A DNA stretch of 64,000 nucleotides from a virus, in IMG/VR virus record IMGVR_UViG_3300045806_000063, positions 62,001-126,000 of that record. One strand, given 5' to 3'. Positions within the stretch are counted from its first letter, which is position 1. The number at the start of each line of letters is the position of its first letter. The translations under genes and the position numbers were made by a program. Of the stretch, positions 30,637 to 56,125 are shown in pieces. The notes under the pieces were generated by a model. It ran no database searches. It was not told the DNA's origin and worked only from the letters and a program-made list of their open reading frames with translations.

Positions 30637-30655
30637 ACTTCATATATTTTTTCTT

Positions 30656-33782: not shown

Positions 33783-33826
33783 TACTACAGGGAGGAGCCT
33801 AGGCTCCTCCCTGTAGTATTTTTTTT
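33783..33826. terminator. 36-base CCTAGG palindrome with T-tract
   Basis: A perfect 36-base palindrome (33783-33818) centred on CCTAGG, followed by eight T. It lies between convergent genes and ends cassette A; the minus-strand stop codon of the giant tail gene is in its T-tract. Confidence 0.85.
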
Positions 33827-36800
33827 AACTTACGGACATATCTACCATAGGTGATATTGGTTTGATAGGTGGTGGTGGGTTAGCACTTACTGAACTATTG
33901 TTAGGTTTCGGAGCTTGCTGATTACCAATGAGAGCATTTAATGATTTAATACCATTATCGATAGATGCTAATATACCGCCACTTACATCACGTTGTTGAG
34001 CTGCTGCATCGGCAGTGGTTGTTATAGCCTTATGTAAAGGAGCTATATCCACAGGGGGAGTAGAAGAACCTGCCCCAGTATCTGTAGTGCCTGATGCTGA
34101 AGCATTTGTCGTATCAGCACTAGCCGCATTATCCGTAGCACTAGCTATGGCGGTAGGTGGCATTGGGTTAGTTCTTTTAGTTCCATCTAATCCAGCAGCT
34201 GTTGAGTCTGGTACTGGGGCAGGAGACCCAGTATCTGAACTAGGCTTAGGACTAATTCCTCCGCCAGCACTGGCCATAAACTTTTCAGCTAATGCTCCAC
34301 GAACACTCTTTTCTTTTTCGGTATCTCCAGGCCTTTCATAAAACTGAGATACAATAGCGCCAGCGTCTGCCGGACTGGTAGCATTCTTTAGTTTATCACC
34401 AGCTCTTTTTTCACTATTTTTAAGTTCCCAGTCTACGAACTGAAGTTCTTCTGCTAGACTAGCCCCTTGGATAGATTTACCAAATACCTTTTGGAATATA
34501 GCTTGTCGATCTGGGTGCCATTGACCTATCCCATATGCCTTTCCACCATCTCCCACTACATCTGGTCTAAAACCAGATTCGGTACTGATGTTAGCTGCTA
34601 TACCAGCCGCTTGTGCTGCGGGCCATCCTAATTCCATTAGTACAGAAATGGCATATTTTGCTTTATCTAATAGACCTTTCCCAATATTACCAGCGGCAGT
34701 GGTGATCTTACCAATTCCGGTTTCAATTGAAGTTGTAGCTTGTGAGGCTAATGCTGTAGCTGGTTTATAGATATTTTCACTAACATAGTTAGATGCTCTA
34801 TCGGCTAATTGTCCTACTTGATTTTTAATATTATCCCAAGTACTCGGACTCTCAGATTCGGTTTCATCTTTATTTTTTTCTTTAGATGGATCTTCCCATG
34901 GAAGTATCTCTCTTGGAGGCTTAATGTTATCTGTATTTTTAAGAGTCTTATCGTCTATCATTCTTATACCTGCACGAATCATATCTGATAAGGTATTAGC
35001 TAACTTTAAGTTGTCAGCTAAAGGTATATCTCCGAAAGGAGATTGTTGTTCACTAAATGGATTTGCACCAAGGCGAGATTCAGCATCACCGAATTGTACC
35101 ATATCTAGAAACGCTGTACGTTTTTCAGCAGTTTGGTTATTTACATATTCAAGTTCTGAACTGATTGTTCTAGCGGCTATTACATGTTTAATATATACAG
35201 GCATGAAACGATATGAGACCCATCTGGCAAACTTATTAAAAGCATTCTGATCAGTAGGGTTGTTATTAAAACGTGAAGCGTAATCAGTCCACATCTCTGG
35301 AATGGTCTTTTTAAAGTTAGGTCTACCTTCCTTGGATATAACTACATAATCTGCTATTTCAGATTCAAAGAATCTTATTGTTCTAACCGCATAACTGTTA
35401 TCTATCGGTATACCATACTGGAGATATCTTAATTTCTCCATATCGTTTAATGGTGAGAAATTCATTAGCTCAGCAGTGCCGTACCAGGCAGCAGTGCCTA
35501 CTGCCGCAACACCTAATGCTGCAAGAGTCTCTGGAAACGCCATAACAGCAGCAGTAGCTGCGCCGAATGCGGTTATTTTGGCTAGTCCTCGTATTAGCCC
35601 ACCAGCTATCCCGCCAGACTTTGCCTTACTTAATAGCCAAGTTGCGGTAGCTCCTACCACTCCAGCAGTTAGAGTACTTGGTCCATCTACCTTCTCATCC
35701 TTATCATCATTCTCTTCTGGTTTCTCTGTTTTTTCTGCAGGGGTAGAGTTAATTGATTCTTTAGCAGGTTTGTTAGATGTTAAGTCTGGCATTCCATGGT
35801 TCTTTTTTTTGCTATTTCTTTTCTTGACAATATCATTAGTTCCGCCTTCTCTATCAGCTTCCTTACTTTCCTTATCTTTGATAGGAAAGGCTTCTTGCAT
35901 ATGAGAGTATATCTTATTTAGAAGTTCCTCTACTTTAGTATCGTGACTAACTATAGTGTCTGTAAACTCAGCTACCACATTACTGATACCAGCTGAAACA
36001 GTGGAGTAAACTCCTGCTAAAGGCCTGATAGCCTTTTTCATTAAACCAGTTACTTTTTTGACTAGTTTAGTATTTTTAATACGGGTATTTAATCTAGAGA
36101 GTGCATCAATCGCTTTCATAATTAATCTAGGTAAACGAATACGCTTTCCAGTTAAAGCATCGAACACTCCAGCCTTAACTTCTTCATTACTTAAGACCTG
36201 TTTAGGTTCAGGGCCAGTAATGTCATAGACTGCTCCTCTAATGGCGTAAATGGTATTTATCACCTTACCAGTTGCAGCATCAATATAACCACCTTTCTCC
36301 ATAACCGATGCTAGTATTCGAGGTACAGTATCTCCTGCTACACATAAGTCTTTAAGTACATGGGTTTTTTCCCATAGAGATTTTAATCTAGCTATAGGCG
36401 ATTTTGCATTAGCATAATTTTTAATGCGTTGTATATTACCGTTTAACCCATGACCTTTAATGCCGGTATAAGCATCAACGATATTGTTCTTTGTGTTAAC
36501 AATGAATGGTTTTCCCTTTTCGTCAATCAGCCCTTCAAGATAATCCGCAGCACTTATAATCGTTTCGCCATGTCTATTAACTACAGCGCCTCGTATGTCA
36601 TCATAAGACTTTATTACTTTCTGTGTTATCTTGTCATAGTACTCGCCATTTAATAACCCTTCTAAACTCAATGCAGGAATGTGTTTAGTGTTTTTCTTAT
36701 AGACAGCCTTAATTGTTCTAAATGCTCCGCCTTTAGAACTAAGACTATCCATGGTTTTTGTAAATTTACCACCAGCCCATGTTGCAGCCGATTTAGCGAA

Positions 36801-39335
36801 GTCTTTACCTTTAGTGATTCCGGTGCCTAATAAACCTAACAAACTACCTATCAAACCTAAACCACTACCAGCTAATCCTACAGTCCCATCTGCTAAACCA
36901 AATAAACCACCTAATAGTTTGCGTATACTTGAGGTTTTACCACCAACTTTCTCATAAAGATTTTTACTACCTTCAGAAATCTTCGATCCTAAACCGTGGA
37001 ACATGCTTTCGCCATTAGATCCACCAGAGATATACCCTGTAGGTTTTTCTAATATCTTTTCCAGCATTGAAATTATTCTATCGGTATTACGAGATTGAGA
37101 ATTGACTATTCTATCAGCATCTTTACTAAATGATACTTGAACCTCTTTCTTCTCAGCTCTAGGTTTTTTAGATTTGTATTCTTTCTCTTCTTCAAAGGAG
37201 TCTTCCTTAGTAGATTTAGAACTTGATTTCCTGCCGGTAAATTTTCTCTTTATTTTAGCGAATAGAGAATCTTTCTTTTTAGCTTTAGCTTGAGGAGACC
37301 CTATAGATTCATCGTCCATATAGTCATTATAATCCCCCTTCTCTAATAAGGCTTTGACTAGACTCCATATGTATTCGTCGTTTACTCCGTGGTCATTGAC
37401 AATTCCCATCTGCCTTAAACTATCAGTATCTCCGACCATATAGTGAGTATTTAATATCTCTTGAGCTCCACCAAATGACTCACCTAATCGTTTAAAGTGT
37501 TTAGTAGCTTCTGAGTAGCGTTCACTAGATTCTTTATTACCAGTATGTTTCCATTTAGTTCTTCCTGTATTTAGATTTGTACCATTTTTCTCCACTCCAT
37601 AGGTGCTAGCAAAAAGATCTGCAATAGCAGGATCTATATCACTAGGAAGACTGAAGCTGTCAGCATATTCTGCTGGATCAAATTTTCCTTTCTTCGCCTC
37701 CCTAGCTAAAAATAATCCTAATTTAATTCGTTGATCAGGAGAGATCAGTGTATTATCTGGATCTAACTGTTTGATTATACCTTGTATTTCATGGTTAATA
37801 CCTGAGCTAAGGGTACCTTTAAAGTTTTTGGCTACTTCCTTATGTCTCTCTTTCATTCCTAAAAACTTTTCAGTTTGAGTAGAATATACTATTCTATCAC
37901 TCTTTTCATCTGAACCTGAAAGTATATTGTAAATGTCAGATTCTTTCTGTAAGATACGACTTAAGTACCCAGGTAATATGTCAATCAGCGTACGACGCTC
38001 TAATACACCCCAGGGAACAGCTGTAGTGGCGTCATATTCTAGTCTTCTATTAATCTGGTCATGTTGGTTAAGATCTATATTGGCAATGCGATCTAAGAAT
38101 CCCCAACCTCCTAGACCTCCAGATTCTCTCATTCTACTATATATATCTGCTGGTATAGTAGTTTTTTTCCTATCTAGCCAATTAGCACCTTTAGCAACAT
38201 TGTCTGGTAAATTAGGGAAAACTCTACCTAATGCTGAAATTATATTAGCACCATGTTTTTTTCCAAGTAGTTTGGAACTAAACGCTAAAGCCTCATCCGC
38301 AGCTCCTTCGCCCATCATTTTGTAAATGTCAGCTCCTGGCATCTGACTCATCATTTGCATCATGCCCATCTGTGAAGTTAAATCAGATATGCCAGACAGG
38401 TAATCCTTAGTCTCGTTAGATATCCCTATTTTCAGTTTACGAACTATGTCGCCTAGTCTATTTCGGCTATACTTTTGTAAACTACCGATAAGCATAGTCT
38501 TAGTCTGATTAGCAAATAGTTCATTATTGCTGACCTTTACTTCATTAGGAAGAGCCGTGTTGTACACGATATCTTTTAATTGTTCAAACTGCGCTTTGGT
38601 TGATTCATTGGTTAATGTTAACAGTTCTTTAGTTGCATAGTACTGACGGTATTGTATCTCTAATGTCTTCTTATGCCAAGCATTAAGAATAGTGTCTTGG
38701 TAACCTACTACTCGTGAAAGTAGTTTAGTTTGTGCGGAGTTATGCCCTGCACTATGTTCAAATTGCTTCTTATTAATAGCTCTATCTAATGTTGTGTGGG
38801 CTATTTGCTCTTTCTGTTGTGCATCAGCTTGTGCTTGCTCAGCTCCAAAAATACCCTGTAACATTGATGCAACATCAGAATCTTCCTTATTGTCATCATT
38901 ACTAGAGCTACTCCCGCCACTGCCGTTATCTGTTAAGGCACTTTCTAATCGGCTAGCTAGACCTTTCGGTAGTATTTTATTGGTAAATGGAGTAAAAGTC
39001 TTAAGTGCTGCTTTAGCAGATTTAAATGCAGGTTCGGCATCCCTTTTAGCCGAATAAAAGATACTAGAAACATCATTCGCTACACTCTCCAGACCTGTAT
39101 AAGCATCCGAATAGGATTTACCTAATGTGGCGAAAGCTAAACCAGCGGCAAATTTTCCAGCACCTTTTTTAGAAGCTATAGTACTCCTAAAGCTGGAAAT
39201 AGCTTTAATATGTGCTTTTCGGTTATCGACGACATCTGGGTCAAAGCCACCCAGCTCCATACTTAGATCATCATCATCCTCAAAGTTATATTCCTTCTCT
39301 TCAAGGAGGTCCTCTTTATCTCTATTTTTTGCCAT
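33825..39335 (-). CDS. Giant tail protein with lysozyme domain (tape-measure type)
   Basis: An 1836-aa minus-strand protein. Residues ~1560-1695 form a phage tail lysozyme domain: GIAANISTESGF with the likely catalytic Glu, then GDGGKAYGIGQWHPDRQ, LQFVDWELKNSE and QFYERPG. A hydrophobic stretch near 1230-1280 could insert in membrane. Around residues 895 and 1015 two related segments share a Y-D-x-x-T-x-KVI...IRGAV pattern, an internal duplication. Residues 81-84 (GLES) and an SLEGL before the first repeat resemble the prohead protease motif. Length, lysozyme and membrane segment fit a tape measure or ejected tail protein that breaches the cell wall. Confidence 0.7.
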   Translation of the reverse strand: MAKNRDKEDLLEEKEYNFEDDDDLSMELGGFDPDVVDNRKAHIKAISSFRSTIASKKGAGKFAAGLAFATLGKSYSDAYTGLESVANDVSSIFYSAKRDAEPAFKSAKAALKTFTPFTNKILPKGLASRLESALTDNGSGGSSSSNDDNKEDSDVASMLQGIFGAEQAQADAQQKEQIAHTTLDRAINKKQFEHSAGHNSAQTKLLSRVVGYQDTILNAWHKKTLEIQYRQYYATKELLTLTNESTKAQFEQLKDIVYNTALPNEVKVSNNELFANQTKTMLIGSLQKYSRNRLGDIVRKLKIGISNETKDYLSGISDLTSQMGMMQMMSQMPGADIYKMMGEGAADEALAFSSKLLGKKHGANIISALGRVFPNLPDNVAKGANWLDRKKTTIPADIYSRMRESGGLGGWGFLDRIANIDLNQHDQINRRLEYDATTAVPWGVLERRTLIDILPGYLSRILQKESDIYNILSGSDEKSDRIVYSTQTEKFLGMKERHKEVAKNFKGTLSSGINHEIQGIIKQLDPDNTLISPDQRIKLGLFLAREAKKGKFDPAEYADSFSLPSDIDPAIADLFASTYGVEKNGTNLNTGRTKWKHTGNKESSERYSEATKHFKRLGESFGGAQEILNTHYMVGDTDSLRQMGIVNDHGVNDEYIWSLVKALLEKGDYNDYMDDESIGSPQAKAKKKDSLFAKIKRKFTGRKSSSKSTKEDSFEEEKEYKSKKPRAEKKEVQVSFSKDADRIVNSQSRNTDRIISMLEKILEKPTGYISGGSNGESMFHGLGSKISEGSKNLYEKVGGKTSSIRKLLGGLFGLADGTVGLAGSGLGLIGSLLGLLGTGITKGKDFAKSAATWAGGKFTKTMDSLSSKGGAFRTIKAVYKKNTKHIPALSLEGLLNGEYYDKITQKVIKSYDDIRGAVVNRHGETIISAADYLEGLIDEKGKPFIVNTKNNIVDAYTGIKGHGLNGNIQRIKNYANAKSPIARLKSLWEKTHVLKDLCVAGDTVPRILASVMEKGGYIDAATGKVINTIYAIRGAVYDITGPEPKQVLSNEEVKAGVFDALTGKRIRLPRLIMKAIDALSRLNTRIKNTKLVKKVTGLMKKAIRPLAGVYSTVSAGISNVVAEFTDTIVSHDTKVEELLNKIYSHMQEAFPIKDKESKEADREGGTNDIVKKRNSKKKNHGMPDLTSNKPAKESINSTPAEKTEKPEENDDKDEKVDGPSTLTAGVVGATATWLLSKAKSGGIAGGLIRGLAKITAFGAATAAVMAFPETLAALGVAAVGTAAWYGTAELMNFSPLNDMEKLRYLQYGIPIDNSYAVRTIRFFESEIADYVVISKEGRPNFKKTIPEMWTDYASRFNNNPTDQNAFNKFARWVSYRFMPVYIKHVIAARTISSELEYVNNQTAEKRTAFLDMVQFGDAESRLGANPFSEQQSPFGDIPLADNLKLANTLSDMIRAGIRMIDDKTLKNTDNIKPPREILPWEDPSKEKNKDETESESPSTWDNIKNQVGQLADRASNYVSENIYKPATALASQATTSIETGIGKITTAAGNIGKGLLDKAKYAISVLMELGWPAAQAAGIAANISTESGFRPDVVGDGGKAYGIGQWHPDRQAIFQKVFGKSIQGASLAEELQFVDWELKNSEKRAGDKLKNATSPADAGAIVSQFYERPGDTEKEKSVRGALAEKFMASAGGGISPKPSSDTGSPAPVPDSTAAGLDGTKRTNPMPPTAIASATDNAASADTTNASASGTTDTGAGSSTPPVDIAPLHKAITTTADAAAQQRDVSGGILASIDNGIKSLNALIGNQQAPKPNNSSVSANPPPPIKPISPMVDMSVS

Positions 39336-39360: not shown

Positions 39361-42300
39361 GTGAATATATCAAGACTACCATTTAATGTAAAACTTTTAG
39401 CCAATGACGCAAGTGCTATAGCTGGAGAGCTTGCTGTTGAAAATTTAGATATATTTAGTTCAGACAATCAATTTAACTCCGCAGGACTCTATAGTTCGGA
39501 GATATTTGGTGAGGTCGGAACTGATAAGCGTCTAAAGTCATTTGGCTTTATAGATATGCGTACTGAAATTATGCATCCTAAAATCTTTATGGAGTTGTGT
39601 AAACTCAAAGCCTTATATGAGGGTATACTCTCAGGTAGAGCTTACGCCGTATGGGATGAAAAAGCTAAAGATTTTGTTGGATCAAATGTAATCGACGGGC
39701 AAACTGGTTACAGTTTTTTCATGAATAAATTTTTAGAAATTATTCATGCTACAAACGATTCCAATCTTAGAGAACTCAGGATAATGCTCCTGGATAAATC
39801 TAAAGACAAATGCATGTATCGCTACTATCAAGTTATCCCTGCAGGACTTAGGGATATTGAACTAAATACACAGGAGAGGCCTAAGGAAGATGAGATTAAC
39901 ACCATCTACCGTAAATTAATTAGGGTCAGTAATACGATCTCTATCCACAACCGAAAATCTAATGATCCAATTTTAGATAACCCAAGAGGGCTATTACAGA
40001 CTGCAGCTAATAACATCTATGCACACCTTGAAGCTATCTTCTCTGGTAAACGTGGATGGTATCTAGATAAAGTAATAGCTCGTAATGTTCATGGTAGTAC
40101 TAGGAATGTTGCTACAGCAATGGACCCCTCTCCTGTACGTGTAGGGTCTAAAGAAGCATTAACCATAGACCACACCATCATTGGATTACATCAGTTCATG
40201 AAGGGCGCTGTTGAGCTTACAATCCATGATATACGCAAAGGGCCTATGCGGGATGTTATTGAATTCATGCCATCTATGGCATATGTCGTAGATAGTAAAA
40301 CTCTGCAAAGGAAAACAATTTTACCCAGTAGGTTTACAGTAGATAACTGGGGAACTGAAGAAGGTATTGAAAAATTAATCAATGGATTTGAAAAACCATA
40401 CGCTAGACATAAACCTATCTTGGTAGATGGGGATTATGCTGCATTACTGTATCGTGATACTAAACATTATAGAGTCTTTTATGATATAACTGACCTACCC
40501 AATGGTTTCTCCAAAAGCAATGTAAAGCCTATAACCTGGGCTGAAATGTTTTACCTATCTGTATATGAAAGTGCCGCTAAAGTAGGAGGGTATAACACTC
40601 GGTATCCTGTCGCTGGAATGGGTAGTTGTTATTGTAGTAAGTTATTTTTAGAGACTACTGTTAAATCAGATAGCTTAATTGAACTGGATGATAAGTGGAA
40701 TCCTACTAACAAAGATATCACACCTATTCATATGCCTCAAGCTGGTTTAGCATTCTTAGATAGTTCATCAGTACATATCAGTAAAGAACCAGACCTAGGA
40801 CTAGATCATGATGGTGATACATTCTCATTACCTATTGTGGTTTCAAAAGAAGCTATAAAAGAAGTAGATGATTATCTTAACTCACCTGAAGCATTTTTAA
40901 ATGAATCTGGAGGATTAAGATATGGTATTAATAACAAGATATCAGTAATGGTCTTAGAGAATTTTACCAGAGGATATTTCCCTAGCAGTCATGGGTTAGA
41001 GTCCTTAAATGGTACACCTGAAATCAGTCCAGCTACTAAAAAGGACTCAGATGATCTGGTTAAGTTAGCAATAACAATGATGGAAGAAACCCCATTCTTA
41101 TACCTTGGCTGGGATAGCGAAGACCAAATGGCACGACATGAGAAAAAACAACAAAAGAGGTTTATCGAATCAGCGTCAGGCGATATGCTATATTTTACCT
41201 TAAAACTTAAAGGTAAAATAATCGGTTTTATACGAGCCGCTATTAACAGTAAAAAGAAATCAGCTAATTTTGCAGTTGGTGTACTTAAAGAATATCATGG
41301 ACGTGGATATGGTAAGATGCTAGTCTTATACTTAATTCAAGTTCTTAAGGATAAGAAAGTTAACACTCTGACACTCAGTGTAGATAAGAATAACACAGTA
41401 GCATTAGGGTTATATCAGCGATTAGGATTTGTAGTAATAAGCGATTATACTTTTGAACAAACTCCAATGTATAGAATGTCTCTAGACTTAACCGATTATC
41501 ACTCATTTGGTATAGAGTCTTTATTTGGTGATGATGCAGAAGATATAGAAATCTGTGGGGTTGCTGATTGTACTGAGGTTATTGACTCTAACCATTATGA
41601 CATTAAAGGAGAAATAACAAAAGCCGTTCATGAAGCTGCTACCTCTCCTTTAAACACTTTAGATATTCCATCTGAAGCTATGTATAAAGCTGGTAACTAT
41701 AAAAAACCTTTAATTGATTTACATGGGTTAAAGATTAGAATAGAAAACCCACAAGGGTCAGTTAGATCTGGAACTGACGCAGATGGTAATGCGTGGTCTA
41801 ATCCAATCATGCATCATTATGGATATATCCTAGGAACTGATGGAGCCGATAACGACCCACTAGATGTATTCATTGGTGAACATCCCGAATCTCAAAGTGT
41901 CTTTATTATAAACCAAGTAGATCCTAAGACCCGTGAGTTTGACGAGCATAAGGTAATGCTAGGATTCAATTCAGCACTATCTGCTGAAGAAGGATACCTT
42001 AAGAACTATGAACTTGGTTGGAATGGATTAGATTCAATCGTAGAGACTGATATAGATGGTCTTAAAGATCTCATCAGCATAAATGAGTTTGATGATGAAA
42101 TAACCGACAACGATTTAGATGACTTTGGGTTAGAATCATTAGGATCAGGTCTACTAATCAGAGCTGCAACTATTGATGATAAAGAAGTTTTAAAATCCAT
42201 GCTAATTGAGGAAGCAATAGATTCTTATCTATATGAACCTGACTGCCTCTATCTAGCATTTAACAATAATGAATTGATTGGTTTTATCGGATGTGAAGTA

Positions 42301-43005
42301 AATCCATTTAATTCTAAAGCAGTTATGTCAATTGGAATCTCCGAATCTAATTTAGCACAAGGGGTATCTCTTATTCTAGTTGACACACTTGTTCAGTCCT
42401 TGATGGATAGAAAAGTGCGACATTTAATAACAGCCATACCATCCACATCTCCTGATAGCTTAGCTCAGTTTGAGTACTTAGGTTTCAGAATCATAAAACA
42501 CGATACCATTAATAACTTATATGCATTACAACTCGATATACAAAAACCAACTGCTTTAACTGTTTCAGTAAATAGTTCAGGATGTAACTATGGGTTAGAG
42601 TCTCTTAATAGTTCTGAGTATTATTACCATGGCAGCCCTAAGAGAAATGTCTTAACCTTACAACCAAACCCGTCAAGAGTACTTAATGGAGAGACAGCAG
42701 TATTTGCAGGAGAATACTGGACGGCTATAGCGTACACCAGATCTTGGTCTGATGAAGACTTTATACAAGGAACTATAAATGGCGCTCCATATATGAAGGA
42801 ACGATATGAGGGAGCATTCAAGAAAGTCTATGATGGTGGAGGCTGGGTGTATGCTGTTAGTAAATCCGATTTTCATCATGATCCAAGATTAACTAATTTT
42901 GAATATATCTCAGAACATCCTGTTAGAATTATAGGATCTGAATACATAAAAGACCCTATTCAAAAACTTAAAGAATTAGGAGTCAAACTTCAGTATTACA
43001 AATAA
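39361..43005 (+). CDS. RNA polymerase beta-prime N-terminal module in a cleavable polyprotein
   Basis: GTG start with CAGGAGTT upstream; 1214 aa. Residues 1-540 match the N-terminal half of RpoC: AGLYSSEIFG, SGKRGWYLDKVIARNVHGSTRNV (landmark GSTRNV), RYPVAGMGS and the catalytic triad loop LDHDGDT (Asp482, 484, 486; the bacterial form is NADFDGD). After HGLESL (545) comes a GNAT domain (~605-708; YHGRGYGKML, YQRLGF). After FGIESL (717) an inorganic-pyrophosphatase-like domain follows (~780-900; DNDPLDVFIGE). After FGLESL (923) a second GNAT-like domain, then YGLESL (1078) and a final YYYHGSPKR domain, perhaps ART-like. The beta-prime C-half is not in this window. Confidence 0.75.
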   Translation: MNISRLPFNVKLLANDASAIAGELAVENLDIFSSDNQFNSAGLYSSEIFGEVGTDKRLKSFGFIDMRTEIMHPKIFMELCKLKALYEGILSGRAYAVWDEKAKDFVGSNVIDGQTGYSFFMNKFLEIIHATNDSNLRELRIMLLDKSKDKCMYRYYQVIPAGLRDIELNTQERPKEDEINTIYRKLIRVSNTISIHNRKSNDPILDNPRGLLQTAANNIYAHLEAIFSGKRGWYLDKVIARNVHGSTRNVATAMDPSPVRVGSKEALTIDHTIIGLHQFMKGAVELTIHDIRKGPMRDVIEFMPSMAYVVDSKTLQRKTILPSRFTVDNWGTEEGIEKLINGFEKPYARHKPILVDGDYAALLYRDTKHYRVFYDITDLPNGFSKSNVKPITWAEMFYLSVYESAAKVGGYNTRYPVAGMGSCYCSKLFLETTVKSDSLIELDDKWNPTNKDITPIHMPQAGLAFLDSSSVHISKEPDLGLDHDGDTFSLPIVVSKEAIKEVDDYLNSPEAFLNESGGLRYGINNKISVMVLENFTRGYFPSSHGLESLNGTPEISPATKKDSDDLVKLAITMMEETPFLYLGWDSEDQMARHEKKQQKRFIESASGDMLYFTLKLKGKIIGFIRAAINSKKKSANFAVGVLKEYHGRGYGKMLVLYLIQVLKDKKVNTLTLSVDKNNTVALGLYQRLGFVVISDYTFEQTPMYRMSLDLTDYHSFGIESLFGDDAEDIEICGVADCTEVIDSNHYDIKGEITKAVHEAATSPLNTLDIPSEAMYKAGNYKKPLIDLHGLKIRIENPQGSVRSGTDADGNAWSNPIMHHYGYILGTDGADNDPLDVFIGEHPESQSVFIINQVDPKTREFDEHKVMLGFNSALSAEEGYLKNYELGWNGLDSIVETDIDGLKDLISINEFDDEITDNDLDDFGLESLGSGLLIRAATIDDKEVLKSMLIEEAIDSYLYEPDCLYLAFNNNELIGFIGCEVNPFNSKAVMSIGISESNLAQGVSLILVDTLVQSLMDRKVRHLITAIPSTSPDSLAQFEYLGFRIIKHDTINNLYALQLDIQKPTALTVSVNSSGCNYGLESLNSSEYYYHGSPKRNVLTLQPNPSRVLNGETAVFAGEYWTAIAYTRSWSDEDFIQGTINGAPYMKERYEGAFKKVYDGGGWVYAVSKSDFHHDPRLTNFEYISEHPVRIIGSEYIKDPIQKLKELGVKLQYYK

Positions 43006-43013
43006 CCTCTACC

Positions 43014-43046
43014 TATCACCATATCTGCTAAGTAGATATGGTGATA
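43014..43046. terminator. Palindromic terminator
   Basis: A 15-bp stem with one G-T wobble and loop TAA, ending the polyprotein gene; followed by CTTTTCTTATATT. Confidence 0.65.
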
Positions 43047-43075
43047 ACTTTTCTTATATTCAAATAATTTTCATT

Positions 43076-43140
43076 TATATATCATCTAGATGAGATTACT
43101 AAATTAGTATTTCTTAAGCAGCTATTCTTTTAATAGCAAA
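43076..43140 (+). promoter_or_regulatory. Conserved promoter/leader block, copy B
   Basis: A 65-base block nearly identical to copy A over its whole length, including the TCATCTAGATGA palindrome (43082-43093), ATTACTAAAT, TTCTTAAG and CTTTTAATAGCAAA. The ATG follows 19 bases after the block. Confidence 0.75.
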
Positions 43141-43158
43141 TTAGATTTGGAGAATGAA

Positions 43159-43524
43159 ATGAAAGCAATTACAGTGCCAGGTACAATGGCGTCCATGTTA
43201 TCCATCCTGGATTCCCAATTCGGGAACGAAGGTGAGAAGAATTACCGTGCCTCTGAGGAGGTACGAGTGGTAACTGTGGCTAGTAAACCGCTGAAAAATA
43301 GCACGGTAGTCAAGTTCCTGGTACAGTCCACTAAGGACTACCAGTTAGTGGGAGCGGCACAAGCTACTCTCACAGAAGATGGTAAGAACTACGACTACAC
43401 GAGGCTAGTCTGTACCAATGCAATATACGACCCTAGCGGCTTAGGCTTCTCACTAGTAGGGTTCAGTGAGGAGGACCTAGAAGGGTGGGATCATTTTGAG
43501 GTGGAGCCACTGGCTATCCTCTAA
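43159..43524 (+). CDS. Unknown protein of expression cassette B
   Basis: The start is ATG 43159, with TTTGGAGAATGA upstream. The 121-aa protein is acidic in its C-terminal half (FSEEDLEGWDHFEVEP). It is less AT-rich than neighbours. The sequence suggests a beta-rich fold (VRVVTVASKPLKNSTVVKF). No family recognised. It carries the same promoter block and CCTAGG palindrome as cassettes A and C, but the three proteins show no obvious similarity to each other. A bulged hairpin lies at 43318-43344. Confidence 0.55.
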   Translation: MKAITVPGTMASMLSILDSQFGNEGEKNYRASEEVRVVTVASKPLKNSTVVKFLVQSTKDYQLVGAAQATLTEDGKNYDYTRLVCTNAIYDPSGLGFSLVGFSEEDLEGWDHFEVEPLAIL

Positions 43525-43536
43525 GTAGGACTTTGT

Positions 43537-43568
43537 GGAGTGAGGAGAGCCTAGGCTCTCCTCACTCC
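43537..43568. terminator. 32-base CCTAGG palindrome
   Basis: A perfect 32-base palindrome centred on CCTAGG, with a T-tract (43584-43592) a short way downstream. Ends cassette B. Confidence 0.8.
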
Positions 43569-43608
43569 CATCCTGTTTAATTATTTTTTTTCTTTTAAAT
43601 TGTAAACA

Positions 43609-43618
43609 TATATTATCT
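43609..43618 (+). promoter_or_regulatory. TATATTATCT early-type promoter element
   Basis: AAACATATATTATCTGA, 41 bases before the ATG at 43659 with TTTGGAGAAT between. The same sequence, including the preceding TTTTAAATTG, occurs at 56648. Confidence 0.65.
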
Positions 43619-43658
43619 GATAGCTATAACGTAATTAAATTTATTTGGAGAATAAAGT

Positions 43659-44060
43659 ATGAAAACTAAACAATGTGAACAAAACCCATTCGCCGTTTGG
43701 TTAAGGCTATTCAGAAACCAACGCGGTTACAGTCTGGAAAGACTAAGTTGTGAAGTTGAGTGTGGTATAAGCTATCTTTCGAAAGTAGAATTAGGTAAAG
43801 TCCCTACTCCTTTCTGGTTACCAGACCGCTTGCTAGAACTATACCCACTTCTAAGTCTTAATGAAGAGTTTAAAAAAGCATTAATGTTAGGAGACTTTAC
43901 TACTCACACTAAAGGCAATGGTCAGACAAGAGAAATGCATATTAATAAATCAACTGTTATACGACTGTTTAATGGAGTAATTGATAGTCTGAGTGATCAA
44001 GGTCTAATTGATTTATGTAATCTTTTACTAAAGTTCCAACCTACTGTTACGGAGAAATGA
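43659..44060 (+). CDS. XRE-family HTH regulator 1
   Basis: A 133-aa protein with an XRE/Cro-type HTH: WLRLFRNQRGYSLERLSCEV, then ISYLSKVELGKVPTP (landmark YLSKVELGK). The C-terminal ~55 residues are a helical domain possibly for dimerisation. The next gene encodes a similar protein with the same layout, so the two are tandem paralogues. They probably bind DNA in phage or host promoters; the palindromes in the promoter blocks nearby are candidate targets. Overlaps the next gene by ATGA. Confidence 0.7.
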   Translation: MKTKQCEQNPFAVWLRLFRNQRGYSLERLSCEVECGISYLSKVELGKVPTPFWLPDRLLELYPLLSLNEEFKKALMLGDFTTHTKGNGQTREMHINKSTVIRLFNGVIDSLSDQGLIDLCNLLLKFQPTVTEK

Positions 44061-44440
44061 TGTCAATGAATAGCAAATTAATATCCCCCTTTGGGAAAAG
44101 GTTACGGAAGTTTAGAATTGATACTGGGATTACTCAAGCCGAAATGGCTAAAGCATTAGGGTATTCATCTTCCTTTTTGTCAAATCTAGAATTGGGTAAA
44201 GTTAATGCAACCAAGGAAATGATAGACAAGTTACTAACAACATTCGAAAGTTTACGACCATTCGAATATCAGTTAAGAAAGTTGGCATCCGAATCTCAAG
44301 CCAGAATAGATATTCACACATACAACCTATCCCTCGATAGAAGAAAATTACTGAGCTTAATGGCTGCAAACATAACGCATCTGTCAGATTTTCAAGTAAA
44401 GAGATTTATAGATTCTTTAAACCACGTTACGGAAAAGTAA
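44057..44440 (+). CDS. XRE-family HTH regulator 2
   Basis: A 127-aa tandem paralogue of the preceding gene. HTH: FRIDTGITQAEMAKALGYSS, then FLSNLELGKVNATKEM (landmark FLSNLELGK). The C-terminal helices end in DSLNHVTEK, parallel to LLKFQPTVTEK in the first paralogue. Translation is coupled to the first (ATGA overlap with CGGAG just upstream). A pair of co-translated XRE proteins could form heterodimers. Confidence 0.7.
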   Translation: MMSMNSKLISPFGKRLRKFRIDTGITQAEMAKALGYSSSFLSNLELGKVNATKEMIDKLLTTFESLRPFEYQLRKLASESQARIDIHTYNLSLDRRKLLSLMAANITHLSDFQVKRFIDSLNHVTEK

Positions 44441-44446
44441 AAGTAA

Positions 44447-45130
44447 ATGAACACCACATCCCCTGATGTTAATATCCATAAATTAGCCTTAAATATAGAG
44501 GCTGCTGTTAAAGAAATATCATTAATGGAGAAAGAACTTAGAACTATGAAGAAAGATGGGATCTTAATCCCAGATAAACTGAATCAGTTAATTGATTCCT
44601 CAAAAAAGAGACTGAAGAGACAACGCAGAGAAGTCAATAGAATGATCTGTATAACTGATTTCCAGAAGGGGTTAGAAAGATATAAAGAATTTTTCAGCTT
44701 TACCTGTTGGGAACCAACTCCTTTTGCTATGGTGTCTCGTGAGGTTATCGAGTCTACGTCTTTGGAAGTAGGTGAGTTAGTTTTTATAATATACCCACGA
44801 GATGCGTTGAGTTCTGAAGTTCCTGTTGAGTTCGGTAAAGGACATTTTTGTCTAGTAGTAAAATGGGATTTTACCGACACACATGCAATCATTGAAGACT
44901 CGTTTACTGGAAGACGATTTGAAGTTGATAAGCGTTACATTTATCCTAAATCCACGATATGTAATCAGATAATAAATCTTTTCACATTACAAAGCTGTCT
45001 AGCGAAAGAAGATCTTGCTCAGCAGACAGATACTCTCTGGGATGCCGGAGGATCTATCATTAGATATGGTAAATTAATTAACGATAGACGAATATCGGCA
45101 ATGTGTGAAAGTTTCACTAAAATCAAATAG
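44447..45130 (+). CDS. Unknown protein
   Basis: A 227-aa protein. Residues 20-65 are a basic coiled coil (KEISLMEKELRTMKKDG, KKRLKRQRREVNRM). The rest is mixed alpha/beta with FGKGHFCLVVKWDF and IIEDSFTGRRFEV, suggesting a small beta domain. No family recognised. It starts six bases after the XRE pair and is in the same operon. Confidence 0.5.
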   Translation: MNTTSPDVNIHKLALNIEAAVKEISLMEKELRTMKKDGILIPDKLNQLIDSSKKRLKRQRREVNRMICITDFQKGLERYKEFFSFTCWEPTPFAMVSREVIESTSLEVGELVFIIYPRDALSSEVPVEFGKGHFCLVVKWDFTDTHAIIEDSFTGRRFEVDKRYIYPKSTICNQIINLFTLQSCLAKEDLAQQTDTLWDAGGSIIRYGKLINDRRISAMCESFTKIK

Positions 45131-45163
45131 CAATAACTTATTTAATATAACTGGAGTAAAAAA

Positions 45164-46129
45164 ATGAATAAAACTGAACAACTAATTTGGATCGATATCG
45201 AAACTACTGGATTTGATCCAAGATCAGATAAAATACTGGAAATTGCAGTAATAGTAACTGCACCTGATTTAATCGTAGACGATAGTAAGGTATTCACTTC
45301 TGCTATCAGAAAGGCTAAGTTTCAGTTAAAAGAAATGACAGAATGGTCCACTAAGCAGCATACTGAAAGCGGTCTCATAGCTAAGTGTCTAGATAATGCA
45401 ACACCAGTTATGACGGAAGTGGAAGCTCAGATACTTGAGTTCTTAAGTGTTCATACGGAAAAGGGCAAATGTCCAATAGCGGGCAGTAGTGTTTGGTTTG
45501 ATAAAGCTTTTCTCCAGTATCAAATGCCGTCACTGTATGACTGGTTACATTATCGGATAATCGATGTGTCCTCCATCATGCGTTTCATCAGAATGTATGA
45601 TGAACTCCCTCCAAGTAAAAAACTAAAACCGCACACCGCATTAGCTGATTTACAAGAAAGTATTGGGGAATTTAGAGAGTATAGAGATTCTCTATTTCCA
45701 AACTGGGCAGGGGGGTTATCAGTGCCCGACCTTTATCCACAATCCGCTACTGCAGTAGCGGCAAGGTATAAGAGAGAAGAAGAGGAGTCGTGGAAAAAAG
45801 AACATAACTTTAAGAAAGTTTTCACTGGATTCTTTGATGCTCCGCCTCGTGGATTTAAAGGTATAGATCTTAAAGATTCAGAGGTGCATAAAGAGGAAGA
45901 GGTGGTGCAAGATTCCTCTCAAACTATTTTCGATATACGCACTGATAGATTGTTAACGACCACGATGGTTTGTAACAAATTAGAAATAGTTAGAAGTACC
46001 CTGTACAACTGGATGAATGACTCCCGTAAGGAGTTTCCAAAGCCTATCGATAAGGCTGTACTAGGTAATCAGTGGTCAGAAAAGACGATTGATGAATGGG
46101 TTATGAAGATGAAAGGGGTAAATAAGTAA
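45164..46129 (+). CDS. Oligoribonuclease-like exonuclease fused to AlpA-like HTH
   Basis: A 321-aa protein. Residues 1-180 match DEDDh oligoribonuclease: WIDIETTGFDP (Asp11, Glu13), WSTKQHTESGL, GSSVWFDKAFL (Asp113), HYRIIDVSSI and HTALADLQESI (His157, Asp162). This enzyme class degrades 2-5 nt RNA fragments. Residues 181-255 are a charged linker. Residues ~261-318 look like an AlpA/excisionase winged HTH (LLTTTMVCNKLEIVRSTLYN, then WSEKTIDEWV). I know of no common family with this fusion. The HTH may tether the nuclease to DNA or let it act as a regulator. Confidence 0.75.
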   Translation: MNKTEQLIWIDIETTGFDPRSDKILEIAVIVTAPDLIVDDSKVFTSAIRKAKFQLKEMTEWSTKQHTESGLIAKCLDNATPVMTEVEAQILEFLSVHTEKGKCPIAGSSVWFDKAFLQYQMPSLYDWLHYRIIDVSSIMRFIRMYDELPPSKKLKPHTALADLQESIGEFREYRDSLFPNWAGGLSVPDLYPQSATAVAARYKREEEESWKKEHNFKKVFTGFFDAPPRGFKGIDLKDSEVHKEEEVVQDSSQTIFDIRTDRLLTTTMVCNKLEIVRSTLYNWMNDSRKEFPKPIDKAVLGNQWSEKTIDEWVMKMKGVNK

Positions 46130-46665: not shown

Positions 46666-46690
46666 ACTATCAGGTAGTAATAATAAAAGA

Positions 46691-46730: not shown

Positions 46731-46743
46731 CTGAGAACTAAAT

Positions 46744-47429: not shown

Positions 47430-47491
47430 GTCGTTATTTTTTCTTATCTTTTATATGAATCGTTTGTAATGTTAATTAATCTGGAGTGGTA

Positions 47492-50400
47492 ATGAGTTCT
47501 CTACTAAAAATAAAAGAATTTGAAACAAGATTTACTGTAAATCAAATAACGAAAATATCAGGATCATTCAAAAAATTTACACCTGATGTAATGTTTTTAC
47601 CTGAGAATGCAATGATTCATTTCATTGCTGAGACTAGCACTGAACTAGGTATTGATAAAAGTTTTTCACTACTGAGAAACTACTACAATGCTACGACCAT
47701 TTACCATGTTAAAGAACTTAAAGCAGTAGTAGGCTCTCCTTCTGCAGTTAGAGGGACTACAATTAAGCAACTGATAATTGCATACCATCGTACTCATCTA
47801 GAGATTAAAGAGTTATCTAATTTGGATAGATCTGTGTCTCTTGAAAAGAATCCAATCGTTGTAAACTATGCATTGTTAGCTAGAGTGTATAGTTATCCAA
47901 AACACGTCTTAAGCGAATATCATGAGTGGATGAATATACGAACCACTATGTGGGATACGATAGCTCAGATTGGTAGTAGGCGAGAACATTTTATTCGTTT
48001 TAAATTACCACTTCATCTTCAAACTAAGAATGAGTTAAACAAGTGTTTATCAGGGTTTAATTCTAGTGACTTAAACAACTTCCACACTAAAGATGATTTT
48101 GATTTAATGGAGTTATGGCAGATACTACATCCTCAAATTGAAACTCCAGTAACAAAGATTAGTGACTCTATATTGAGTAATGTATTTTTGACCTTTATTG
48201 AATCTGGGGTAATAGCTATAATTTCTTTAGGGGAGTTAATAGAATGGGCAGTAGAGGACTATGAGACTGCTACGAATAGCTTTCATAAATTCTTGGATAC
48301 CCTGATAGGGTTAAGAAGTCCTATTGATCTGAAGCAATTAGAATCTGATTCTGCTGACTTAGCTGATCATGTTGATGTTGATAGTAAAATAGTAAAGCTG
48401 ATTAATGCACATGGTGAAGTAGGAAATATATCCCATGGTGAACAGAAAGCTTTATTGAAATTATCAGAAAGATATAAAACCATAAAAGATCCAGCAGGTT
48501 CTGGTTTTACAGTAGAAGAATTAACGAAAGGTCCTCAAAATAAACCAATACTGAGAGAAGCTTTAATAAATGATCCTGCTGGTGTTATTAATCAGGATAT
48601 GCTTTATTCAAGTGTAGATTACAAAGAAAAAGCATATGTAAAAGATGTAATGCATAAAAATATGCTGCAAATGATTCTAAAATTACAGGATGGCGGCATC
48701 ATCATTAAGGATATAAAACTTAACAAAAGAATAGATGCAGCTAACAAACAGTTTGAATATACAGTAGCAGTGACTCCTGTAGCCGGGGAAGCTAGTACAT
48801 TGCCAATAACTATACCGGTTATAGAACCTGACGGAAGTTTCCTGCTGGGGGCTACTAAGTATAGGTTAGATACTCAGAAAGGTGAAATGCCGGTAGTAAA
48901 GACTAAAGCGAACACAGTAGCCTTAACTAGCTACTATAGTAAAATCTTTATAATAAGAACTGAATCTGCAAACCTAAACTATAGCAGATGGATTAGCAAA
49001 ATACTATTAAATCAGAGTGAAGCTGGAGGAGTGGTAACTGACTTAATTCATGGGATATCACACATAACCGATAAAGTCCCTAGAGGTTACTCAGCTATTG
49101 GTGAGAACTATAAGAGTTTCACAGTAAAAGGACAGTATGCTTTTACTTTTGCTTACTCTGACATTAACACTAATTTTACACCAGAAGAAGTGACTACCTT
49201 TGAACAGATGAAACTCGTACCTTGCGGTAGAGATTTAAAATCAAAATCACCTATTGGGATGGACGCTGAAGGTAAAATATATTTGGTTGTTATCAAAGAT
49301 AAAAATGATGGTATGATTTATTTGGGAACTATTCCAAATTTAATTAGTGAAGATCTTGGTAATGGTCCTAATGAGTTTACTGAGTTTGGTATGTTTGGTA
49401 AAAGGGTACCTATCATCTTAGCTTTAATGATGAGGGATGGTCTTGAAAAGACTCTAAAAAATTTACATGTAGAGTATAGCATAAATCCAGTTGCATCAAC
49501 CAGGATAGTTTTTGACCCTACTAAGCTTATCTTAAAGTGTAAAGATTCCACATACATCATAGACATAACTAACCCTTTCAGACGATTAATAGTTTCAGGG
49601 TTATATGTGTTAAGGGATATAAGTACACGATATAAAGCTATCGACTTTAACCATACTCAGTCCTATGGTTCAATATTCTCTGCTATTGGGTTAAGCTCCC
49701 ACTATATTAAAGAAATTGATTTAATGTGGGATATGTTTATAGATCCAATAACTGAAGAACTTTTAACAGTGACAAAAGAACCTACCAATTTTAAAGACCT
49801 GCTATTACATGCTAGCGACTTGTTAATAGATGACCATATACCTGATGTAACTAGTGTTAGGAATAAAGGTTATGAACGTATATGCGGAATGGTATATCGT
49901 GAACTCGTATTAGCCATGCGCGAGCATAGAGGCAAAGGATCATCAGTTGGTTCAAAGTTTACACTAAATCCTAATGCGATAATGATGTCGATACAACAAG
50001 ATCAAACACAGACATTAGTCGAGGAATCAAACCCTATACATAACCTGAAAGAAAAGGAATCAGTAACATGTGTTGGTGCAGGGGGACGAAATACTGATAC
50101 GATGATGCATAAGGATCGTGGGTTCACTAAACATGATTTTGGTATTTTATCTACTGATACTCCTGACTCTGGAAAGGTAGGGGTTCGTGGAAGTTTAGCA
50201 CCTGATGCAAACTATACTTCGGTGTATGGTACTGTGGAGGCTCTAGATCCTGCGACAGCTAAAAACCCAGTACAAGTATTAAGTACCTCAATGTTATTAG
50301 CTCCTGGAGTTACCCATGACGATGGTAGACGTGGCAACTTTATAGGTATTCAAAATAGTCACACAGTAGGATGTGAAAATTATGATGCTTTACCTTATTG

Positions 50401-51448
50401 TACAGGATATGAAGAGGTAGTAGCAGGTAGAACCGATGAACTCTTTGCAATAAAAGCTAAAGAAGATGGAACTGTTGAAAAGGTAACTGCTTCCATGTTA
50501 ACCGTTATCTTTAAAGGAGCAGGAAAGGTAAACTATGAAATCGGTGTACGACACGGTGTTGCTTCTGGTAAAGTTACTCCTCATAATAGAGTAACTGATC
50601 TTAGAGCTGGTGATAAATTTAACAAGAATGATATTTTGATATGGGATTCAGGTTTCTTTGAAAGAAGTTTAATAAATCCTAACAACGTAGTTCATAAACA
50701 AGGGATCTTAGCTAGGTTTGTTTTTGTTGACAATGCTTTAACCAATGAAGACGGCTGTGTTATCACTGATAAGTTTGCATCTAAGATATATACCATGAAA
50801 ACTAAGTTACATGCCATTATCATAGATTTTGATATGATAGTCCATAATTTAGTCACTGTCGGAACAGAAGTCACTCCTGAAACCATTCTATGTACCCTGG
50901 AGGGGTTTGTTCACGATGCTTTACAAACTAAAGATCCTGAGGCTATAAAGGCTTTGTCTGACATTAGTGCTGGTAATCCTAAAGCAAAAGTCTATGGTAA
51001 AATAACTAATATGGATATGGTTTACTATGGAAAGATAGAGGATATGCATTCTAGTATGCAGGAATTAGCTACCAAGTTTGATAACAGTAGGGCTAAACGT
51101 GTGAATACTTTTAACCTTGACGAAGCTAAGACTGGAAAGATCTCAAGTTCGATAAGGGTAGGTGGTATTAAACTTGAACCAAATCAAATGGCTATCAGGA
51201 TCTATATCGATGATATACTGGATATGAATACTGGTGATAAAGGTGTAGTGTGTCATCAATTGAAGACTACGATATCTTCAGTCACTCCAGATCCAATAAC
51301 AACTGAAGATGGACAGGAATTAGATGGCGAGTTTGCTTACATGTCAATTAGTAACCGAATCGTCGAGTCTGTTATTATAGTTGGAATGGCGTGTGAGATA
51401 CTGGCTGCTGGTACTAAAAATATGGTAAAGATTTATAAATCACATTAA
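47492..51448 (+). CDS. RNA polymerase beta-subunit-like protein (lacks C-terminal clamp)
   Basis: The ATG at 47492 follows CTGGAGTGGT; a GTG two codons upstream is in the RBS. The 1318-aa protein carries RpoB landmarks in order: a fork-like IPVIEPDGSFLLGATKYR near 450; HDDGRRGNFIGIQNSHTV near 942 (RpoB NDDANRALMG...QRQAV); CTGYEEVVAGRT; ALTNEDGCVITDKF near 1083; GDKGVVCHQL near 1248 (RpoB GRHGNKGVIS), then SNRIVESVIIVGM. It ends about where RpoB has 220 more residues. That missing part matches the separate gene at 21530. Such split subunits occur in phiKZ-type phages, which have virion and non-virion enzymes; which set this belongs to is open. Confidence 0.8.
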   Translation: MSSLLKIKEFETRFTVNQITKISGSFKKFTPDVMFLPENAMIHFIAETSTELGIDKSFSLLRNYYNATTIYHVKELKAVVGSPSAVRGTTIKQLIIAYHRTHLEIKELSNLDRSVSLEKNPIVVNYALLARVYSYPKHVLSEYHEWMNIRTTMWDTIAQIGSRREHFIRFKLPLHLQTKNELNKCLSGFNSSDLNNFHTKDDFDLMELWQILHPQIETPVTKISDSILSNVFLTFIESGVIAIISLGELIEWAVEDYETATNSFHKFLDTLIGLRSPIDLKQLESDSADLADHVDVDSKIVKLINAHGEVGNISHGEQKALLKLSERYKTIKDPAGSGFTVEELTKGPQNKPILREALINDPAGVINQDMLYSSVDYKEKAYVKDVMHKNMLQMILKLQDGGIIIKDIKLNKRIDAANKQFEYTVAVTPVAGEASTLPITIPVIEPDGSFLLGATKYRLDTQKGEMPVVKTKANTVALTSYYSKIFIIRTESANLNYSRWISKILLNQSEAGGVVTDLIHGISHITDKVPRGYSAIGENYKSFTVKGQYAFTFAYSDINTNFTPEEVTTFEQMKLVPCGRDLKSKSPIGMDAEGKIYLVVIKDKNDGMIYLGTIPNLISEDLGNGPNEFTEFGMFGKRVPIILALMMRDGLEKTLKNLHVEYSINPVASTRIVFDPTKLILKCKDSTYIIDITNPFRRLIVSGLYVLRDISTRYKAIDFNHTQSYGSIFSAIGLSSHYIKEIDLMWDMFIDPITEELLTVTKEPTNFKDLLLHASDLLIDDHIPDVTSVRNKGYERICGMVYRELVLAMREHRGKGSSVGSKFTLNPNAIMMSIQQDQTQTLVEESNPIHNLKEKESVTCVGAGGRNTDTMMHKDRGFTKHDFGILSTDTPDSGKVGVRGSLAPDANYTSVYGTVEALDPATAKNPVQVLSTSMLLAPGVTHDDGRRGNFIGIQNSHTVGCENYDALPYCTGYEEVVAGRTDELFAIKAKEDGTVEKVTASMLTVIFKGAGKVNYEIGVRHGVASGKVTPHNRVTDLRAGDKFNKNDILIWDSGFFERSLINPNNVVHKQGILARFVFVDNALTNEDGCVITDKFASKIYTMKTKLHAIIIDFDMIVHNLVTVGTEVTPETILCTLEGFVHDALQTKDPEAIKALSDISAGNPKAKVYGKITNMDMVYYGKIEDMHSSMQELATKFDNSRAKRVNTFNLDEAKTGKISSSIRVGGIKLEPNQMAIRIYIDDILDMNTGDKGVVCHQLKTTISSVTPDPITTEDGQELDGEFAYMSISNRIVESVIIVGMACEILAAGTKNMVKIYKSH

Positions 51449-54557: not shown

Positions 54558-55397
54558 ATGCGTCACGCAAAAAAACACCAACTGGATAACCTTTATGCAA
54601 TGGTCTGTAAATGGAAGTTGGATATCCTACTGGAAGAACTTAAAAGACGGTCTCAAGAGCCTTTAATTAGCGAACAAGAGATCAACGATTTCAGAACTAA
54701 TATACCTAACCTCACACAGCTCCAACGTGAAACAGTCTTAAAGTCTTTGTATCCAGCTCCAAGCTCTAATAACAACTCTGAATATCATTACTTTAGTAAG
54801 TTAAAAACCTTAGGAGTGGTACGTGTTGAGATATTGAAATTACTCAATGTAAAAAAGGATTTGATCTTACCAGCAGCTCAGACCTCATTTATACATAGGA
54901 CGTTAAATGAAACACCAAGTACTATTCAAACCATGCACCGCCTCCTGCTTAAATATCATCAGATTATTGATTATATAATCCCTAGTCAATGGGAGGTCTT
55001 TAATACCCATATTCTGAACCCTACACTAATTCCAGCTCCACATACTCTGTCTAACCGACTGTACTTTATCCTTCAGTTTATACTCAAAACTCCAGAGGTA
55101 GATACTTCGGAAGTGTTGGAAATGATCAAATTACAAACAGGTATAAAACGTCTTTTTAATAGTGATGGCGAAATCTGCGATGGATTAAATTCCGATAGCG
55201 ATAAGTTTAATAAGGTAGTCTACTGGACGCCTACTGCTATGAACGAGTTTAATAAAATCTATAATGAACTGGTAGGTATACAGCGTGAACTATACGATAC
55301 TCATGGGATAAATTTATACAGAATAGGAGATAACACATGCCAATTGCCGAATACCGTACAATGGCTTATGGCGGGGCCAACCCTTGTAGTAAGCTAG
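54558..55397 (+). CDS. Unknown protein upstream of the prohead protease
   Basis: The ATG at 54558 is preferred over 54552 because the AGAGAGA site then has normal spacing. The 279-aa protein is helical and basic in its first half (MRHAKKHQLDNLYAMVCKWK) and contains KTPEVDTSEVLEMIKLQTGI in the second. Its end overlaps the protease gene by 61 bases, an unusually long overlap. No family recognised; a head-assembly role is suggested only by the neighbour. Confidence 0.5.
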   Translation: MRHAKKHQLDNLYAMVCKWKLDILLEELKRRSQEPLISEQEINDFRTNIPNLTQLQRETVLKSLYPAPSSNNNSEYHYFSKLKTLGVVRVEILKLLNVKKDLILPAAQTSFIHRTLNETPSTIQTMHRLLLKYHQIIDYIIPSQWEVFNTHILNPTLIPAPHTLSNRLYFILQFILKTPEVDTSEVLEMIKLQTGIKRLFNSDGEICDGLNSDSDKFNKVVYWTPTAMNEFNKIYNELVGIQRELYDTHGINLYRIGDNTCQLPNTVQWLMAGPTLVVS

Positions 55398-56125
55398 AAA
55401 CAGATAGTAACGGGTATCGTAAATGTATCGTTGGCGCTTTTGATGTAATGTCAAGGAATGGACACCGATATCCTGGAACTGAAAGAGTTTTAGCTCTTTT
55501 TGATGAAAAAAGTCATTTCATGATTGGAGTGAGAGAAGGTAACTGTAGAGGAGAGTCTGATCACCCTAATTTAGTTGGGTTATCAATTCCTCAAAAAATC
55601 CATAGGTTGGAACAGATTGAAGACACTAGAGTCTGTGTGCATCATAAGCGTTTCATACTGGATCATGGGTTAGATGAACATAGAAACAAAGTAATATTAG
55701 TCTACAGTTGGCTGAAAGGTTCTGGTGCATTAGGACATGTAACTGAACAACAGTTAGATAATCCTGACGAGAATATATCCTTTAGTGTACGTTCTTTTGT
55801 TATAGATACCCTGCAGAGTGGGATTAAGCATAAAGAAATAACTAACATTATAACCTATGACAAAGTTAATCAAGCTGGATTATCATTCACAACTAAATTC
55901 GACACAGCAGCACTGCGAAATTCTAGTGTTGGTCTTGAGAACTTGAATGATGATGGTTTTGTATTTAGCGATGCTGATCTAGATCTTGCTATACGTGAAT
56001 CTAGAAGTGCTGGAGTGGGCAATGAATCAAATGTCGCTAGGTTAGTTCAAGTGAAAGATTCATTAGGTTGGACAAAAGTACAATCGATAAATCCAGCTTT
56101 CCTTAACTGGAGATCCACGATATAA
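55337..56125 (+). CDS. Prohead core protease (T4 gp21-like)
   Basis: A 262-aa serine protease of the T4 gp21/herpesvirus-assemblin type. Landmarks: SRNGHRYPGTERVLALFDEK near residue 40, the catalytic His in GESDHPN (His76), and ISFSVRSF with the likely Ser150 in S-x-R. A GLENL tripeptide-based site lies at residues 199-203, after which a 60-residue tail follows; autocleavage there would give a 201-residue mature enzyme. AGGAGATAACAC precedes the ATG, which supports this start despite the 61-base overlap. It matures head proteins before DNA packaging, and its likely substrates share the GLE motif. Confidence 0.8.
   Translation: MPIAEYRTMAYGGANPCSKLETDSNGYRKCIVGAFDVMSRNGHRYPGTERVLALFDEKSHFMIGVREGNCRGESDHPNLVGLSIPQKIHRLEQIEDTRVCVHHKRFILDHGLDEHRNKVILVYSWLKGSGALGHVTEQQLDNPDENISFSVRSFVIDTLQSGIKHKEITNIITYDKVNQAGLSFTTKFDTAALRNSSVGLENLNDDGFVFSDADLDLAIRESRSAGVGNESNVARLVQVKDSLGWTKVQSINPAFLNWRSTI

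Follow-up and report, generated by a model that had tools for sequence, protein, structure and literature searches.

Organisation of the locus

DNA sequence analysis of the window, a stretch of 64,000 nucleotides corresponding to positions 62001-126000 of a 181,108-base virus record (IMGVR_UViG_3300045806_000063), identified a single intron-free open frame of 1214 aa at 39361-43005 (+), with a GTG start and an AGGAG sequence located approximately 7 nt upstream. GC and GC3 were uniform along the frame. The ORF joins a fragment of an RNA polymerase to further domains, here called cargo; the fusion is real and is encoded as one chain, as an earlier note made from the sequence alone had claimed.

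The gene located upstream is divergent and codes for a gp181-like tail/endolysin protein (33825..39335, -; phrog_3201, E 1e-131), whose position beside the gene for the beta'-N subunit of the virion RNA polymerase (vRNAP) is conserved in reference phages. Downstream are the gene for the vRNAP beta-N subunit, a homologue of phiKZ gp178 (47486..51448, +; phrog_3148, E 0; BLAST E 7e-166), gp177- and gp176-like genes, and the gene for the prohead protease, a homologue of phiKZ gp175 and SPN3US gp245 (55337..56125, +; phrog_3014, E 1.5e-47; E 9e-23 with phiKZ gp175). This order is the same as SPN3US gp239-240-241-243-244-245 and phiKZ 181-180-178-177-176-175. Lying beside the gp181-like endolysin gene and ahead of beta-N, the ORF occupies the locus of a virion, not a non-virion (nvRNAP), polymerase.

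Approximately eight small genes (43147-47378) separate beta'-N from beta-N, which adjoin in SPN3US. Among these are genes for two tandem HTH-like proteins (43659 and 44057) and for an RNase_T exonuclease fused to an AlpA-like HTH (45164-46129). Elsewhere in the virus record, a weak match to phrog_4795 (nuclear shell) suggests a nucleus-forming phage.

The polymerase module

The polymerase module spans residues 1-547 (39361..41001, +), with homology up to residue 536. Residues 2-536 aligned with positions 2-538 of the 539 positions of phrog_2986 (RNA polymerase beta subunit; PHROGs, E 3e-163), and the module matched phiKZ gp180 by BLAST (E 7e-79). A tblastn search with the whole 1214-aa ORF matched 762 phage records, the best rows covering residues 1-539 at about 40% identity. 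The metal-binding loop (DxDGD) is present as DHDGD at residues 482-486, of which D482, D484, G485 and D486 are invariant in the homologue alignment (A1). On the basis of phrog_2986, phiKZ gp180 and the SPN3US-like gene order, residues 1-536 are identified by homology as the beta'-N subunit of a phiKZ-type vRNAP and not of an nvRNAP.

The RpoC-type identity and the exact position of the loop, both proposed earlier, were borne out. The profile match to RpoC that had been expected for residues 1-540 was obtained over the full length of the PHROGs model, but the homology ends at residue 536. Pfam had no model matching residues 1-547 of the protein. This result was not taken as a refutation, because PHROGs and the BLAST match to phiKZ gp180 were decisive; with Pfam alone, which finds nothing in this region, the test of the RpoC match would have misfired.

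Reference homologues stop at 537-556 aa, except for two that are interrupted by an insertion after approximately 485-501 aa, and most of the IMG/VR homologues likewise stop at about 537-556 aa. The predicted mature beta'-N subunit of the window phage has 547 aa (61.7 kDa) and ends with ...HGLE.

Domains following the polymerase module

The frame continues for 667 residues past the polymerase module. Residues 548-719 (41002..41517, +) correspond to a RimI-like acetyltransferase, GNAT1 (PF00583, E 1.9e-18), for which TIGR01575 rimI was the best NCBIfam match, under its cut-off; the acetyl-CoA (AcCoA) loop is kept as HGRGYGK. Residues 720-925 (41518..42135, +) correspond to an inorganic pyrophosphatase of the polyvalent-protein type, InPase (PF18823, E 1.3e-50). 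Its metal motif (DxDPxD) is intact as DNDPLD, and the conserved Arg and Tyr (R275 and Y293 in the numbering of alignment A3) are invariant; judged from these residues and the profile, the fold and active site are those of a family I inorganic pyrophosphatase. Residues 926-1080 (42136..42600, +) correspond to GNAT2 (PF00583, E 1.8e-5), a paralogue of GNAT1 (E 1e-10) that shows LAQGVS at the place of the R/Q-x-x-G-x-G/A acetyl-CoA loop and is probably degenerate. A Foldseek search with the predicted model of the tail retrieved GNAT structures.

The remaining 134 residues (1081-1214; 42601..43002, +), which begin with SLNSSEYYYHGS, had no significant family in Pfam, PHROGs, NCBIfam, PADLOC or PDB and no relative among phages, plasmids, viral or genome contigs; the single-sequence AlphaFold model of this part was unusable (pLDDT 39.5). 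No peptidase family was found by Pfam or PHROGs in the 1214-aa chain, hence no cis metallopeptidase domain. Of the domain series read earlier, Pfam confirmed the GNAT, InPase and GNAT-like members, and the last, described as a YHGS-type domain, is without assignable family. To call the four parts effectors was too strong: GNAT1 and InPase keep their motifs, but the AcCoA loop is lost in GNAT2, and no family could be assigned to the last domain.

InPase and RimI-like GNAT are among the polyvalent-protein domains listed by Iyer et al. (PMC5512222), who also describe InPase fused to portal proteins. The present chain combines at least two effector-type domains (InPase PF18823 and RimI-like GNATs), and its gene is encoded alongside virion structural genes. 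As a guess by analogy, GNAT1 might have host proteins as its acetylation targets, host RNAP being the target of phiKMV Rac according to a citation in PMC7824862. InPase might remove pyrophosphate or, again as a guess, attack nucleotide-like substrates, which have been proposed for this domain (PMC5512222).

Predicted cleavage sites at the domain borders

The motif G[LI]ESL starts at residues 545, 717, 923 and 1078, on every domain border and exactly where it had been noted before, with putative P1 glutamates at 547, 719, 925 and 1080. The four predicted cleavage sites, all on the plus strand, are GLE↓SL at residues 545-549 (40993..41007), just after the end of the homologues; GIE↓SL at 717-721 (41509..41523); GLE↓SL at 923-927 (42127..42141), which aligns with GTE↓DL of the relative L091 (see below); and GLE↓SL at 1078-1082 (42592..42606), the arrow marking the predicted cut. 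In an AlphaFold2 model of residues 528-1214, GNAT1, InPase and GNAT2 folded as separate units; sites 1 and 4 were within disordered regions, and linkers modelled at low confidence contained or adjoined sites 2 and 3. The predicted released cargo polypeptides have 19.6, 22.7, 17.0 and 15.5 kDa.

Composition shuffles gave an expectation of 0.008 copies of G[LI]ESL in the protein, and the four observed were reached in 0 of 20,000 shuffles. Under uniform placement, the sites would be distributed one per interdomain gap, over all four gaps, with a probability of about 1e-5. The codons at the four copies differ synonymously, so the motifs are not a recent DNA duplication. Taken on its own, each short motif would be weak evidence.

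The same motif in the head proteins

The protease motif of phiKZ is S/A/G-X-E (PMC13282480). SPN3US gp245 cuts A-X-E, with autocleavage at AQE-203; the portal gp81 is cut at ATE-161↓SL, and the MCP gp75 loses 130 residues through an experimentally mapped cut at ATE-130 (PMC5694885). In the window phage, GLE-170↓SFDP of the MCP aligns to Glu-130 of gp75, GLE-170↓SL of the portal aligns to ATE-161↓SL of gp81, and GLE-201↓NL of the protease (residues 199-203) aligns to AQE-203 of gp245.

In 57,192 aa of ORFs, G[LI]ES was found 12 times, versus 2.4 times in shuffles: four times in the 1214-aa ORF, three in the portal, twice each in the MCP and the internal head protein, and once in a tail protein. 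When the 1214-aa ORF was excluded, 7/8 copies were located in the MCP, portal and internal head protein, which represent 3.9% of the residues (p 1e-9). At least two copies of the relaxed motif G[LIVMT]E[SND] were present only in these three proteins and in the 1214-aa ORF. The G-L-E-S sites of the internal head protein, MCP and portal (two to three each; G000:18166-19551, 28785-31109 and 40831-43632) are likely the prohead-protease consensus of this phage, and the borders of the 1214-aa chain carry an S/A/G-X-E motif matching those sites. The earlier suggestion that the prohead protease cuts the chain is thus supported by alignment of the same motif in MCP, portal and protease to mapped SPN3US sites; the one G[LI]ES in the tail protein counts against it, with a chance expectation of about 2.4 per ORF set.

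Related motifs were seen in two other proteins. A 274-aa protein (18814-19638, -; phrog_4682) has GLE↓GL at residue 20, possibly bounding a short N-terminal propeptide, and a 115-aa ORF (G000:10629-10976) with GVE↓SL at residue 15 is possibly a small processed head protein.

C-terminal tails in related phages

Among the relatives, covered by two sets of 80 loci that overlap, beta'-N tails longer than 100 aa occurred in five distinct contigs. L091 (66% identity), from another metagenome, has the arrangement beta'-N, GLE↓DL, InPase, GTE↓DL, GNAT, GNE↓N, HAD-like, and its MCP shows GLE↓SFDP at the same column as that of the window phage. The two InPase domains are 48% identical and align end-to-end up to the C-terminal border, with GLE↓SL and GTE↓DL at the same place. 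The L091 GNAT is closest to GNAT1 yet is placed after InPase, so that the border is the same and the cargo order different. The conservation of borders in relatives, raised earlier as a check, was found in this independent phage; the L091 borders alone are weak evidence, because G-x-E also occurs inside the L091 domains.

No tail was present on beta'-N of L092/L093 (54% identity), and in L092 beta-N begins within a few bases after beta'-N. In L094 (49% identity) a GNAT is fused to beta'-N without a G-x-E border; an uncut fusion seems to be tolerated there. In L170 and L192, beta'-N is followed by ALE↓S or AIE↓S and a ParB-like tail (PF08857 in L170, E 5e-4, under cut-off). L170/L191 and L192 represent two phages with 89% identical beta'-N, in which the linker has diverged and the A-x-E sites are kept. 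L137 has 126 unassigned tail residues beginning with GSE↓K and STE↓G.

Intron-like insertions were observed at the DxDGD catalytic loop of beta'-N in L091 (L091:9483-10112) and L092 (L092:9471-9950). The L092 insertion matched Rfam Intron_gpI; that of L091, which had no Rfam match at threshold, is probably an intron. Interruptions close to this loop are likewise present in the beta'-N genes of phiKZ, vB_pir03 and Yong MS32; the window gene is uninterrupted.

Proposed packaging and release of the chain

We consider it probable that the cargo is packaged with the polymerase, freed by the prohead protease and ejected with the DNA. The precursor would be a vRNAP beta'-N subunit with cargo domains strung along its C-terminal side. 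In SPN3US, the vRNAP is a head ejection protein whose incorporation needs assembly (PMC5694885); since assembly precedes prohead entry, cargo fused to beta'-N would enter along with the polymerase, in a fixed low amount. During head maturation, the prohead protease would cut all four G-(L/I)-E↓S sites on the C-terminal side of Glu, generating a polymerase subunit of 547 aa, near the normal length, and four separate polypeptides. These would be ejected together with polymerase and DNA and be active early in the host, the delivered set consisting of a RimI-like acetyltransferase, a pyrophosphatase-like enzyme, a GNAT-like domain and the unassigned domain. Cutting would also solve a steric problem, because beta'-N ends mid-way in what is one chain in the cellular beta'. 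Against cleavage, SPN3US beta'-N is not listed as processed, and the processing of ejection proteins varies among these phages (PMC5694885). The cuts identified in SPN3US, protease self-cleavage apart, make N-terminal propeptides (PMC10052503), so the protease would be put to a new use if it released cargo from a C-terminus.

The chain might instead be packaged and injected uncut, with the cargo staying on beta'-N and acting beside the transcribing polymerase, InPase for example removing pyrophosphate next to it. The motif-free fusion of L094 and the SPN3US subunit just mentioned are consistent with this, as is the N4 vRNAP, which is packaged unprocessed (PMC5512222). However, four motifs on four borders match mapped sites of MCP, portal and protease, and L091 and L170/L192 retain the borders despite changes in cargo or linkers; we regard an uncut chain as improbable. 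That the tail is cut off as a C-terminal propeptide, an assembly aid or inactive remnant that is largely cleared and delivers no effector set, appears less probable still. In these phages, propeptides of head proteins undergo repeated cutting and clearance (PMC5694885, PMC10052503), and the lost loop of GNAT2 would suit a remnant, but active-site motifs are retained in both GNAT1 and InPase, the latter being 48% identical to its L091 counterpart. In the model the predicted cuts fall between domains, not inside them, and the same types of domain are found in polyvalent proteins that are injected (PMC5512222).

The gene was seen in one metagenomic contig, exact copies not being seen elsewhere, as would be expected if a chimeric contig or a sequencing error had brought two unrelated genes together. 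A chimeric contig was rejected because L091, from its separate metagenome, carries the same design; the single open frame, its uniform GC and GC3 and the SPN3US gene order matched on both flanks leave an artefact a negligible chance.

Relation to known systems

Cleavage by the prohead protease followed by delivery, the reading preferred here, would combine features of several described systems. The subunit, gene neighbourhood and catalytic loop are those of phiKZ gp180 and SPN3US gp240; known proteins of that type, however, end at about 490-550 aa and are cargo-free, and no processing has been reported for them. Polyvalent proteins (Iyer et al. 2017, PMC5512222) are likewise multi-enzyme chains with proposed virion delivery. 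Those of N4-like phages contain a single-subunit vRNAP fused to other domains, whereas the window phage has a multisubunit beta' fragment. A cis metallopeptidase domain is frequent in polyvalent proteins, if not universal, whereas release is predicted here to occur in trans through the prohead protease. The head substrates of S80 prohead proteases (phiKZ, 201phi2-1, SPN3US) and the window phage share the protease family, the S/A/G-X-E cut and the site positions in MCP, portal and protease; the known cuts remove propeptides, while the predicted ones would separate folded enzymes. In a Group 1 Bacillus jumbo phage (PMC7824862), the C-terminal part of RNAP beta is fused to an HD phosphohydrolase, likewise a polymerase piece with an enzyme, but the subunit is different, the enzyme is single and no cleavable borders are described.

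The vRNAP, prohead-protease processing, polyvalent proteins and the N4-type polyvalent vRNAP are all known, and their combination appears undescribed: the literature searched, which was covered in part, gave no example of a cargo chain led by a piece of a multisubunit polymerase and bearing prohead-protease borders. The earlier proposal of a new type of polyvalent protein may hold for this combination, but a polyvalent vRNAP as such is not wholly new, being already described for the N4 type (PMC5512222).

It is slightly more likely than not that the C-terminus of vRNAP beta'-N is a general cargo port in phiKZ-like phages, where lineage-specific enzymes (GNAT, InPase, HAD-like, ParB-like) travel on the assembled polymerase into the head and are mostly freed by the protease. 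Such a port would be an exchangeable protein-injection cassette, with polymerase packaging as the targeting signal. On the preferred reading, giant phages would deliver enzymes at infection by fusion to a protein that must be packaged and by head-protease release, and the prohead protease would have a second job, separating enzymes beyond propeptide trimming. This reading would also provide a short recognisable motif for finding further injected cargo and suggest a route to loading chosen enzymes into phage heads. The matter is also relevant to the activities that operate in the opening minutes of infection, ahead of early gene expression.

A similar cargo pair was found on another carrier in Xanthomonas phage Rb1 (L271:2977-6642), where a protein annotated as 'internal head protein' matches across InPase and GNAT2.
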